From contig NZ_JAQGEI010000025.1 of NCBI RefSeq assembly GCF_029017505.1, positions 1 through 64,000 of the forward strand: a stretch of 64,000 bases of DNA, written 5' to 3'. Below the pieces are notes generated by a model. The model had not been told where the DNA came from. It did no database searches and worked only from the letters and a program-made list of their open reading frames with translations. This stretch comes from Sedimenticola hydrogenitrophicus. GTDB taxonomy: Bacteria; Pseudomonadota; Gammaproteobacteria; Chromatiales; Chromatiaceae. Positions 23,289-31,400 of this stretch are shown one piece after another; position 1 is the first letter of the stretch; each line of letters begins with the position of its first letter. The translations under genes and the position numbers were made by a program.

Positions 23289-24260
23289 TTGGAAAGCATA
23301 CAGATACGCCGCCATTTCAGTCGCAATATCCTGATTCGCATGATCATCCTGGGCGCCATCGGCGCCGGCGTGCTGTTCTGGAAACTCGATTTCATTATTG
23401 AAATCTACTTCCGCGACCAGCTCACCCCCACCGGCCTGATCATCAACGGCGCCATCCTCGCCCTGTTCACCCTCGGGCTGTTCAGGATCATCGGCATACT
23501 GGTCAGTTACGGGCTGGAAGAGCGGGCGGTGGTGCAGTTCATGGCCAACCTGCGGGACAAGGTCGACCCGCTCTACGAGGTCGCCGAACAGCGCATTATC
23601 GCGCGCCGCTACCGTACCCTGGAGGCGCTGCACAAGGCCAACACCCCGATCAATCACAACGCCCTGGCCACCACCCTGGTAGCGTCGGAAAGCACCCGCA
23701 ACAGTCTGCCGAAGTTCGTCAACAACACGCTGATCCTGAGCGGCGTGTTCGGCACCATCGTGTCGCTCTCCATCGCCCTGATCGGCGCCTCCGACCTGCT
23801 CGCCTCGGCAGTCAACGTCAACGGCATGGGACTGGTCATCCACGGCATGTCCACCGCGCTCTCGACCACCATCACCGCCATCGTCTGCTATATCTTCTTC
23901 GGCTATTTCTACATGAAGCTGACCGATGTGCAGACCAACCTGGTAAGCGGGGTGGAGCAGATCACCGCCGCCCACCTGATGCCGCGCTTCCAGATCCAGA
24001 CCGAGAGCGTGCTGTTTGAGTTCAGCGGACTGATCCGCTCGCTGCAGAGCCTGATCAGCAAGATGGAGGGGTCCCAGGTCTCGTTCCAGAACCTGGCCCA
24101 GGAGATGCAGCTCTCCCAGGGTAATATCCAGGCGCTCGAGCAATCCATCAGCCGGGCGATGCAACAGGCCTATGAGGAGCGCATCCAGCCCATCACCCGG
24201 GAGATGGAGGACATCAAGCGGCTGCTCAGGGACGGCTTCCGGCTGCACGAGGACATATGA
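23289..24260 (+). CDS. MotA/TolQ/ExbB-type proton channel protein
   Basis: This 323-residue inner-membrane protein resembles the channel subunit of proton-driven stators. Four helices can be seen: about residues 14-34, 46-68, 146-170 (TLILSGVFGTIVSLSIALIG) and 184-208 (GMSTALSTTITAIVCYIFFG). The last two match the MotA/ExbB core that lines the ion path. The first two helices are followed by a cytoplasmic loop of about 75 residues, and a helical, coiled-coil-prone tail runs from about 245 to the end. The likely start is a TTG at 23289 preceded by GGGGAA; a later ATG inside helix 1 would truncate it. It overlaps the MotB-like gene by ATGA, so the two form one unit. Confidence 0.82.
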   Translation: MESIQIRRHFSRNILIRMIILGAIGAGVLFWKLDFIIEIYFRDQLTPTGLIINGAILALFTLGLFRIIGILVSYGLEERAVVQFMANLRDKVDPLYEVAEQRIIARRYRTLEALHKANTPINHNALATTLVASESTRNSLPKFVNNTLILSGVFGTIVSLSIALIGASDLLASAVNVNGMGLVIHGMSTALSTTITAIVCYIFFGYFYMKLTDVQTNLVSGVEQITAAHLMPRFQIQTESVLFEFSGLIRSLQSLISKMEGSQVSFQNLAQEMQLSQGNIQALEQSISRAMQQAYEERIQPITREMEDIKRLLRDGFRLHEDI

Positions 24261-25330
24261 ACTCCGACAACAGCTTTGTCGATCTGCGGCTGAACCGCCA
24301 GGAGGGCCAGAACCAGGATAGCTTCTGGCCCTCCTTCACCGACATCATGACCGTGATCGTGATGATCTTCGTCATCGCCATGGTGGTCCTGTTGCTACGC
24401 AATATCGAGCTGGTCAATCAGCTGCGCGCCACCATGGAGGCGGAACGTGCCGCGGTGGAGCTGGCCAAGGCCACCGGCGAGGAGAAGGAGAGCCTGGCGC
24501 TGAAGCTGTTCGCGGCGGAAAACGACCTCTCCATGCTGCGCATGCGCCTGATGCAGCTGGAGGAGCAGCGCACGGAACAGGCCGGCACCATCGACACCCA
24601 GCATCGCGGCATCGTCCAGCTGCAGGCGGAAAACGAGTCGCTGCAACTGCTGCGCGACCAGCTCAACGCGGAGAATTTCACCCTCACCCAGCAGCTGAAG
24701 AAGCGGGACGCGCTGATCCAGCAGCAGCAACAGAACCTGGAGGATCTGCAGCAGACCCTGCTCGCGGCGCAACAACAGTTGAGCCGGTTCCAGGAGGAGA
24801 TCGCCTCCGCCCACTCGGCGCTGAATACGCTGGAGCAGAACTACGTCGCGGTGCAGGAGCAGCTGGCCCGGTTGCAGCAACGCTACAGCAGCCAGTCGGG
24901 TGAACTGCTGGCGGCCCGGGTCGCCGAGCGTGAGAGCGGCCGGCAACTGCAGACCCTGCAATCCGATTTCCAACAGCTCAAGGTCAAGTACGACAAACTG
25001 ATCCGGCCGGCCCGTTCACCCGCCGGACGCTACCTGGTGGAGGTACGCTACACCAAGCCGGACAACCGCATCCTGGTCGAATACCAGACCCAGCAGCAGC
25101 CGGGCTACCGGTCCGTCTCCCAGGAGCAGTTGGAGACGGTGCTCGCCGGGCTCAAGGAGCAGCAGGCCAATGGACTCTATATCAAGGTAATCTTCCCGGA
25201 GAACAGCGGGCTCACCTTCACCGAGGCGTGGGGCCTGACCTCCCATCTGCACGGCAGCTACGACTACTATTTCCAGGGCGGCGGCCCCGAACTGGTCCCG
25301 GTCCTGCCCACCCCCGACCAGGGTGAATGA
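24257..25330 (+). CDS. MotB-like single-pass protein with coiled coil, partner of the channel protein
   Basis: This 357-residue protein has the topology of MotB/ExbD-type stator subunits. A short cytoplasmic N terminus leads into FWPSFTDIMTVIVMIFVIAMVVLLL (about residues 23-47); Asp29 sits where MotB carries its proton-binding Asp. Residues about 50-245 are a long glutamine- and leucine-rich coiled coil. The C-terminal 100 residues (from RYLVEVRYTKPDNRIL) form a compact domain, but the OmpA-type peptidoglycan-binding signature is not apparent. Its start overlaps the channel stop codon. What this complex would drive is unknown; no flagellar, Tol or TonB genes are nearby. Confidence 0.8.
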   Translation: MNSDNSFVDLRLNRQEGQNQDSFWPSFTDIMTVIVMIFVIAMVVLLLRNIELVNQLRATMEAERAAVELAKATGEEKESLALKLFAAENDLSMLRMRLMQLEEQRTEQAGTIDTQHRGIVQLQAENESLQLLRDQLNAENFTLTQQLKKRDALIQQQQQNLEDLQQTLLAAQQQLSRFQEEIASAHSALNTLEQNYVAVQEQLARLQQRYSSQSGELLAARVAERESGRQLQTLQSDFQQLKVKYDKLIRPARSPAGRYLVEVRYTKPDNRILVEYQTQQQPGYRSVSQEQLETVLAGLKEQQANGLYIKVIFPENSGLTFTEAWGLTSHLHGSYDYYFQGGGPELVPVLPTPDQGE

Positions 25331-25462
25331 GCGTCGCAGCGGATGCCTCCGGGGATGGCCCCGGAACTTCGCTCGCCGCTTCACTTGATTCTGGCCTTGG
25401 TCCGGGGTTTTGTTGTTATACTCGAAGCCGAACGCCCATTATAACTATAAGCCGGTCCGAAT

Positions 25463-26452
25463 ATGCCAATACCCGTCATCATCTGTGACGACTCAAGCTT
25501 TGCCAGAAAACAGGTCACGCGCGCCCTGCCGTCCGGCTGGGACGTGGACCTGACATTCTGCGCCAACGGCCGGGAAGCGGTCGCGGCGATCGAGGCCGGC
25601 CAGGGGGACATCCTGCTGCTCGACCTGACCATGCCGGTGATGGACGGCTTCGAGGTGCTGGAGTACATCCGTAAACAGGATCTGCCCACGCTGCCCATCG
25701 TCATCTCCGGCGACATCCAGCCGGAGAGCTACAAACGGGTCATGGCGCTCGGCGCGGTCGCCTTTATCAAGAAGCCGGTGGACCCCGCCGAACTGACCCG
25801 GGTACTGGATGAGTTCGGGGTATTGGGTATCCTGACGGAGCAGGAGCTGCAGGCCACGGGCCAGGTCACCTTCACCGAGTGGGTGCAGGAGATCACCAAT
25901 GTGGCCATGGGACGGGCGGCGGACCTGCTGGTGCGGGTGGTCAATGAGAAAGTGGAGCTGACCATCCCCCACGTCAGCCTGCTGGAACGGGGCGAACTGG
26001 AGATGACCCTGAACGCCACCGCCCATGGCGACAGCTTCTCCTGCATCACCCAGGGATTCATCGGCGGCGGCATCTCCGGCGAGAATCTGCTGCTGTTCCA
26101 CGACACCGATATCCGCCATGTCGCCGAACTCCTCAACTTCGATCTCAACCACCTGGAAACCTCCAGCGAGATCGAACTCTACATGGATATTGCCAACGTG
26201 CTGGTCGGCGCCTTCCTCAAGGGCTTCGCCGAGCAGCTGGATATCTGTTTCAGCCAGGGGCATCCCCGCATCACCATCCACAGCCAGGACAGCGCCGTGA
26301 TCCTTGCCAACCACCAGGGACACGAGCGGATACTGACCATAGAGGTCAACTATGTGATCGGGGACAATCAGATCCGCTGTAATCAACTGGTGCTGATCAC
26401 ACCGGAATCCATTGCCGCGCTGAAGCTGCGCTCGGGCGAGGAGATTGGCTGA
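25463..26452 (+). CDS. Response regulator with C-terminal CheX/CheC-like phosphatase domain
   Basis: This 329-residue protein has an N-terminal receiver (about 1-120) with the acidic pair CDD, phosphoacceptor Asp in DILLLDLTMPVMDG, the threonine/serine position in IVISGD, and Lys in FIKKPVDP. The rest (about 140-325) resembles CheX/CheC phosphatases: one ExxN motif in FTEWVQEITNVAMGRA and a second copy in LYMDIANVLVGAFLKGF, where Asp replaces Glu. In CheC-like enzymes these residues dephosphorylate CheY, so this protein could dephosphorylate its own or a partner receiver. It lies 132 bp after the MotB-like gene and two bases before a PAS-GGDEF gene. No cognate histidine kinase is in the window. 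Confidence 0.87.
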   Translation: MPIPVIICDDSSFARKQVTRALPSGWDVDLTFCANGREAVAAIEAGQGDILLLDLTMPVMDGFEVLEYIRKQDLPTLPIVISGDIQPESYKRVMALGAVAFIKKPVDPAELTRVLDEFGVLGILTEQELQATGQVTFTEWVQEITNVAMGRAADLLVRVVNEKVELTIPHVSLLERGELEMTLNATAHGDSFSCITQGFIGGGISGENLLLFHDTDIRHVAELLNFDLNHLETSSEIELYMDIANVLVGAFLKGFAEQLDICFSQGHPRITIHSQDSAVILANHQGHERILTIEVNYVIGDNQIRCNQLVLITPESIAALKLRSGEEIG

Positions 26453-26454
26453 TC

Positions 26455-27417
26455 ATGGGTTCGCTCAACGACGATATTTCAGAGATGCACCTGCTGTTGG
26501 GGATCATCCACAATGTGGATGTGGGCCTGGTGGTGCTCGACCGCGACTACCGGATCAAGATCTGGAACCATTTCATGTGGAACCACAGCGGCATCCACCC
26601 CTTTACCCTGACCGACAAGAACCTGTTCGAGGAGTTTCCGGAGCTGCCGGTCAAGTGGTTGCAGAAAAAGCTGGATACGGTATTCCTGCTCAACAACCGG
26701 GCGTTCTCCTCCTGGCAGCAGCGCCCCTATATCGTCCGTTTCAACAGCTATAACCCGATCACCGGCCGTTCGGACACCATGTTTCAGAACATGACCATCT
26801 TCCCACTGACCGGTATCTCGGGTGAGGTGGAGCATGTCTGCCTAATGCTGTACGACGCCACCGATGCCGCCCTGGACGAGCGGGCGCTGCAGTCGGCCAA
26901 TGAAGAGCTGGACCGGTTGGGACGCACCGACGGCCTGACCGGCCTGTACAACCGCCGCGCCTGGGAGCACCACCTGGAGAATGAATTCAAGCGTTTTCCG
27001 CGTAGCGGCAAACCGCGCACCCTGGTGATGTTCGATATCGACCACTTCAAGAAGGTGAACGACACCTACGGCCACCAGGCCGGCGATGAGGTGATCCGCA
27101 TCACCTCGGCCCTGCTGCAGGAGACCAAGCGGGAGATCGACATCGCCGGTCGTTACGGCGGTGAGGAGTTCTGCGTCATCCTGCTGGATACCGACTGCCA
27201 GGGCGGCAGGATCTTCGCGGAGCGTCTGCGCCACGCAGTGGAGACGACCCGGGTGAATTACGACGGCCAGGAGATCCGCTTCCGCATCAGCCTGGGAGTG
27301 GCCGAGATCCGTGAGGACTTAGCCAACCACAGCGTATGGCTGGAACAGGCGGACAAGGCGCTCTACCAGTCCAAGGAGGGCGGCCGAAACCGCACCACGC
27401 TCTACACGGCGGAGTAA
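26455..27417 (+). CDS. PAS-GGDEF diguanylate cyclase
   Basis: This 320-residue protein is predicted to make cyclic di-GMP. Residues about 10-135 form a PAS-like sensory domain (VDVGLVVLDRDYRIKIWNHF is the family's strand-turn pattern). The GGDEF domain spans about 150-318, beginning RTDGLTGLYNRRAWEHHL, with MFDIDHFKKVNDTYGHQAGDEV and the active-site loop RYGGEEFCVIL. An inhibitory RxxD (REID) sits five residues before GGEEF, so product feedback is expected. It follows the receiver-CheX gene by two bases and is probably co-translated, which places cyclic di-GMP output downstream of that regulator. No membrane segment is seen. Confidence 0.93.
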   Translation: MGSLNDDISEMHLLLGIIHNVDVGLVVLDRDYRIKIWNHFMWNHSGIHPFTLTDKNLFEEFPELPVKWLQKKLDTVFLLNNRAFSSWQQRPYIVRFNSYNPITGRSDTMFQNMTIFPLTGISGEVEHVCLMLYDATDAALDERALQSANEELDRLGRTDGLTGLYNRRAWEHHLENEFKRFPRSGKPRTLVMFDIDHFKKVNDTYGHQAGDEVIRITSALLQETKREIDIAGRYGGEEFCVILLDTDCQGGRIFAERLRHAVETTRVNYDGQEIRFRISLGVAEIREDLANHSVWLEQADKALYQSKEGGRNRTTLYTAE

Positions 27418-30878: not shown

Positions 30879-31007
30879 TGCCGCGGGTACGCGATGCCGC
30901 GATCGCGAGCCAGGTCCGGCCTGTGGGCGAAGGGCGCGTTTCATCGGCGCCTGGAATATTTTCCGCCTACAATTGGGGATAGATTCATTCCGAGTAGGGA
31001 GCCCGTT

Positions 31008-31400
31008 ATGTACTTTGGCAAGAAATATGAAACCGCGCGGCCAGGGGGGAGTGTCGCCGACGAGCGCCGGGCGATCCTGCGCCGCCACCTGATCTATTAC
31101 CTGCGGGTATGGGACACCGCAACGGACCAGCTGCTCGGGCATATCGTGGATATCAACACCGACGGCCTGATGCTGATCAGCGAGAAACCGATCGAAACCG
31201 GCAAGCCGTTCGACCTGGAGATCCGCTGTCAGGGCATCGCGGGCGCACCGGAGACGATCCGCTTTGCCGCGGTCAGCCGCTGGAGCAACAACGACGTCAA
31301 CAGCGCCTTCTACGATACCGGCTTCCAGCTGGTCGATCCCTCGGAAGAGATCCTGGAACCGATCCGCCAGATGATCCGCCAGTACGGCTTCGGCGACTGA
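31008..31400 (+). CDS. PilZ domain protein (probable cyclic di-GMP receptor)
   Basis: This 130-residue protein is a stand-alone PilZ domain. The arginine-rich switch region (DERRAILRRHLIYYLRVWD) precedes the beta barrel, and the second motif appears as VDINTDGLMLIS, close to the DxSxxG consensus but with Asn in the Ser/Ala position. TAGGGAG lies before the ATG at 31008; an earlier frame start lacks such a site. It may sense the product of the two GGDEF proteins in this window, though no physical link is shown. Its effect is unknown. Confidence 0.85.
   Translation: MYFGKKYETARPGGSVADERRAILRRHLIYYLRVWDTATDQLLGHIVDINTDGLMLISEKPIETGKPFDLEIRCQGIAGAPETIRFAAVSRWSNNDVNSAFYDTGFQLVDPSEEILEPIRQMIRQYGFGD

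Follow-up and report, generated by a model that had tools for sequence, protein, structure and literature searches.

The four genes A–D of Sedimenticola hydrogenitrophicus are probably two independent units lying side by side, a motor family (A–B) and a signalling pair (C–D), and A–B are best read as ion-driven motors of an uncharacterised family, whose shaft is one continuous coiled coil. The genes lie in the window, by which we mean the whole 64,000-nucleotide stretch of DNA that was analysed, on contig 25 of a 5.13 Mb genome (Table 1). All four are real genes and were found where the original prediction had placed them and on the same strand, with A and B overlapping by 4 bp and gaps of 132 bp between B and C and 2 bp between C and D. 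The description of A–B as a proton-channel or motor-like pair that has no known partner and stands apart from the Tol, Ton, flagellar and Zorya genes also held, as Tol, TonB, flagellar and Zorya partners are all absent near the locus, and separate MotA/TolQ/ExbB and ExbD genes are found elsewhere in the genome. To our knowledge, only a small number of ion-driven envelope motors have been described, and there is debate over how they transfer work to the cell wall or the outer membrane. We found no description of A–B or C–D in the open-access literature we searched, and the word coiled-coil does not occur in a 2025 survey of MotAB proteins (PMC12505986).

Table 1. Positions in the window of genes A–D and of the features discussed in the text.
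Feature	Position	Strand	Comment
Gene A, MotA/TolQ/ExbB-superfamily channel subunit	23289..24260	+	323 aa, TTG start
Gene B, MotB/ExbD-like partner of A	24257..25330	+	One TM helix, rod, C-terminal domain
Codon of the B ion-site Asp29	24341..24343	+	D in 138/139 B proteins
B coiled-coil rod (limits approximate)	24425..25003	+	Length heptad-locked across the family
B segment modelled, with conserved C-terminal domain	24968..25327	+	PAR ... YIK..P..SGL..EAW ... YDYY
Conserved T-tract and extended -10 element TGTTATACT	25408..25422	+	-10 hexamer 25417-25422
Gene C, receiver and CheC/CheX-family phosphatase domain	25463..26452	+	Asp54, EITN at 143
Gene D, PAS-GGDEF diguanylate cyclase	26455..27417	+	GGEEF at 235, RxxD I-site at 226

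Homologs of A were identified in 94 of 195 genomes of the order (E ≤ 1e-3), 93 of which are full members of the family (the 94th, in G142, is a weak hit to a different channel), with one member per genome. A is present in all sampled Sedimenticola, some genera have it in each of the genomes sampled, and it was found in none of the plasmid and phage records; B was found in about 50 of 370 genomes of the class and in a further 19 genomes of the phylum outside it. A lies immediately 5' of B in 90 of the 93 loci, with the two genes overlapping by at least 4 bp in 45 pairs and the majority of the remainder no more than 60 bp apart, while the other neighbours are variable (neighbourhood counts are based on simple ORF calling in partly fragmented assemblies, and taxonomic statements beyond named loci on kinship labels). 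The genes downstream include those for HDOD, CobW, Slp, MFS and cytochrome c proteins, and we found no fixed partner gene in the neighbourhoods examined. In 32 of 88 loci the gene after B is on the opposite strand, as would be expected of a finished two-gene operon. A–B is a stand-alone two-gene unit across the Gammaproteobacteria and beyond.

The C–D pair has a distribution of its own. Full-length relatives of C occur in 10 of the 195 genomes of the order (three genera), about two dozen of the 276 genomes of the class also have one, and in all 20 loci examined a relative of D follows C directly. Eighteen of these 20 loci have no A–B, and A or B is present only at the two from Sedimenticola. 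Six genomes outside Sedimenticola (G103, G166, G225, G274, G333 and G430) carry both pairs at separate places, which either are not on the same contig or are separated by hundreds of kilobases. The two pairs are thus conserved independently of each other, and they are in contact only in Sedimenticola.

This bears on the original prediction that the four genes form a single proton-driven envelope device under cyclic di-GMP control, as when the co-occurrence of all four families was checked the two pairs were found to occur mostly apart, and we reject the four-gene unit on synteny. We consider such a device very unlikely even if it is confined to Sedimenticola, where gene order and strand are constant in the complete loci. 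A gene with a CheX-type domain follows B in only seven of 93 loci, the window and L037–L042, all from Sedimenticola. GGDEF genes are found within seven genes of A–B in 11 loci, the seven from Sedimenticola and also L055 (a REC-GGDEF gene, upstream), L060, L077 and L078 (an FHA-GGDEF gene), and these last four could be taken as support for one device, but no GGDEF gene was found nearby in the class-level A–B loci L124–L172. Our analysis therefore corrects a plausible yet unsupported tie of A–B to cyclic di-GMP control, while a regulatory link between the two pairs may exist inside Sedimenticola.

The gap between B and C also speaks against a single device, as a promoter-like block lies ahead of C. 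The gap has diverged in seven Sedimenticola genomes except for the block TTTT(G/A)TTGTTATACT some 40 bp before C, which is invariant in the seven aligned loci and includes the extended -10 element TGnTATACT, with TATACT at -46 or -47 in eight of nine Sedimenticola loci. A simple promoter scan of the gap, which demands a -35 hexamer, made no call. We regard the TGTTATACT element as the probable promoter of C–D and suggest that the conserved block favours separate transcription of this pair, though we restrict the promoter claim to Sedimenticola because in other genera the region shortly before C was found to lack TGTTATACT. We note that a terminator-like stem is marked at 25387-25409, though such stems are not commoner here than expected by chance.

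The identification of A as MotA/ExbB-like was supported by profile comparison. Its match to Pfam MotA_ExbB is below threshold (18.4 bits against a cut-off of 22.9), but profile–profile alignment with TolQ/ExbB using hhalign over the TM3–TM4 core was significant (E 3.2e-5), and the part that aligns is the invariant core of the family (GVFGTI...GA... and HGMSTALSTTxTAI). A has four hydrophobic segments in a 19-residue Kyte–Doolittle scan, and the predicted model of the protein was poor (mean pLDDT 50). In 133 of 134 sequences the tail of A has GFRL or GFRI at its end (residues 313-319 of the A protein in the window, at about 24225-24245), and this near-invariant end is likely to be a docking site for a partner.

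B was likewise found to be MotB-like. It has a single TM helix (residues 22-56 by hydropathy) with the ion-site Asp29 in FWPSFTDIM, and an Asp is found at this position in all but one of the B proteins with a readable N-terminus (Table 1). The exception, the relative in L087 (8907-9992, +), has Gly at the ion site (FWPSFTGIM) but is otherwise conserved, and it may belong to an inactive or altered motor. The best matches to B are the N-termini of ZorB and MotB, including ZorB of the solved structures 8VVN and 8VVI as well as ZorB models, and the domain search marked a coiled coil in B and gave no match to an OmpA-like peptidoglycan-binding domain. AlphaFold2 modelling of the C-terminal domain from a 22-sequence alignment gave block-mean pLDDT values of about 64–82 in the core and a predicted order of strand-strand-strand-helix-strand-helix-strand, which is the order of elements in ExbD and TolR. 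The domain thus has a predicted ExbD/TolR-like secondary-structure order, and it should be noted that a profile comparison with the ExbD proteins of relatives using hhalign was not significant (P ~0.2).

Between the TM helix and this domain lies the rod. In the window 222 residues separate Asp29 from the conserved P-A-R motif, and among 138 sequences this span varies between 166 and 572. Of the 30 distinct rod lengths, 20 fall in one class modulo 7 and eight in a second class differing from it by 3 or 4. The periodicity signal was seen at 7 and 14 only and was flat at other moduli. With the rod left out of the alignment behind the tree, parsimony gave 59 changes in length. Whole multiples of 7 account for 40 of them (binomial P ~1e-20), and of the remaining 19, 17 are 3 or 4 modulo 7, the size that produces a stutter in a coiled coil. 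Hydrophobic residues in the rod are most frequent at two positions of the heptad, spaced four and three apart, and the tail of A, used as a control, has 10 lengths with no periodicity. These heptad steps and the flat control are strong evidence that the rod is a single uninterrupted coiled coil from the TM helix to the C-terminal domain and that its register is under selection. The rod looks to have evolved almost only by steps which keep both ends in the same rotational phase.

Beyond the membrane the rod would be about 30 nm long here (at 0.15 nm per residue), which suffices to reach the outer membrane. The relatives of B in L168, L079, L084 and others have rods of more than 400 residues which would be at least 60 nm long if straight, and as this is longer than the usual periplasm, the rod is less likely to be a simple straight strut there. 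The series of variable length and constant phase is a natural one for tests of shaft mechanics.

Our best reading of A–B is that they form a motor of the MotA/TolQ/ExbB type at the inner membrane, in which two B chains would pair, with several A subunits, five by analogy, arranged around their TM helices and protons carried by their Asp29 residues. Past the membrane the two B chains would form a continuous parallel coiled coil that ends in a small domain, probably gripping peptidoglycan or an outer-membrane component, and ion flow would drive movement along the shaft, either by torsion or by pulling. We infer a 5:2 assembly by analogy, as well as rotation, the use of protons, a dimeric rod, a periplasmic target and a physiological role for A–B. 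It is possible, and we propose it only tentatively, that A–B are a new family of rotary ion-driven motors in which a phase-locked coiled coil acts as a drive shaft and carries torque across the periplasm. The length of the rod would then be tuned in each lineage, while the motor helix and the terminal domain would stay in the same rotational register. Heptad locking is not proof of rotation, because any continuous coiled coil must change length in heptad steps.

The near-invariant end of the A tail and the phase-locked rod of B would also fit a pair that senses the envelope and is not an output motor, with the rod relaying force or distance to the cytoplasmic A tail (GFRL), the cell wall or outer membrane as the source of the signal, and ion flow gated by it. 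Sensing of the wall in such a way has been proposed for ZorAB (PMC11890865), which lends this possibility some support, but a conserved cytoplasmic partner gene was not found in the neighbourhoods and we think a sensor rather unlikely. The GFRL tail and the C-terminal domain of B are concrete handles for finding partners of A–B.

The motor we favour shares features with several known systems. A aligns with TolQ and ExbB across TM3–TM4, and B, like TolR and ExbD, has one TM helix with an Asp and a similar predicted order of C-terminal elements, but differs in having a coiled coil of some 140–550 residues between the TM helix and the C-terminal domain; the tail of A with its near-invariant end is a further difference, as is the lack of a nearby TolA/TonB, Pal or TolB partner. 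Membership of the Tol or Ton systems was rejected because the neighbours vary and no TolA/TonB-type partner was recognised. The long periplasmic shaft of the B-type subunit recalls GldLM, the motor of type IX secretion and gliding, where the shaft is thought to transmit mechanical energy to the outer membrane (PMC9389320). In contrast to B, in which the shaft is predicted to be a coiled coil of variable length, that of GldM consists of folded domains and is about 18 nm long, and A–B are found in Proteobacteria without GldK/N.

ZorAB is also a two-gene motor, and the ZorB-like N-terminus of B and the cytoplasmic tail of A raise the question of whether A–B might be a Zorya-like anti-phage motor whose effectors were lost or never present. 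We consider this highly improbable, as some genera have the pair in all of their sampled genomes, A is in none of the plasmid and phage records and has no PADLOC match, B lacks an OmpA/Pal-like peptidoglycan domain, and the long element is in B rather than in a ZorA-type tail. Membership of Zorya itself was rejected as the effector genes ZorC/D or ZorE were not found among the annotated neighbours.

MotAB and PomAB belong to the same superfamily and share the position of the Asp, and most of the A-carrying genomes of the order have flagellin, so that an additional flagellar stator might be considered. However, no flagellin match was found in 14 of the 93 carriers, several of them at least 99% complete, and A–B is therefore not simply a flagellar stator. 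B also lacks the OmpA-type domain and the genome has separate MotA-type genes, and we regard a role as a stator as extremely doubtful.

In L046 (5347-12363, +) and similar loci among L044–L059 from uncultured Gammaproteobacteria, A–B lie inside a conserved run of genes (DUF2244, HemW-like radical SAM, 2OG-Fe(II) oxygenase, A, B, an unknown gene, MlaC, glutaredoxin and TerB). This gene order is not general among A–B loci, though the closeness to MlaC, a lipid-transport protein, may point to a function in the envelope.

The labels given originally to C and D were largely retained. The receiver of C was borne out, with its phosphorylation-site position given in Table 1, but profile scores place the phosphatase domain closer to CheC than to CheX (NCBIfam CheC 1.3e-10 against Pfam CheX 1.5e-5, the latter below the cut-off). 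The ExxN catalytic motif is found in 14 of 15 relatives of C scanned, and D is a PAS-GGDEF protein carrying the GG(D/E)EF active-site motif that an active diguanylate cyclase would require. Domains and catalytic motifs are those of CheC/CheX/FliY phosphatases and PAS-GGDEF cyclases, but C differs from these phosphatases in having a receiver fused to the phosphatase domain and in always being paired with a cyclase. From this conserved pairing we infer that the receiver-phosphatase and the cyclase would cooperate in a phosphorylation-to-cyclic di-GMP output, in which the phosphorylation state of C, partly set by its own phosphatase domain, would govern D or the output of D. A PilZ-domain protein, of a family of cyclic di-GMP receptors, is encoded at 30894-31400 (+) of the window, about 3.5 kb downstream of D, and related genes lie nearby in other Sedimenticola loci too.
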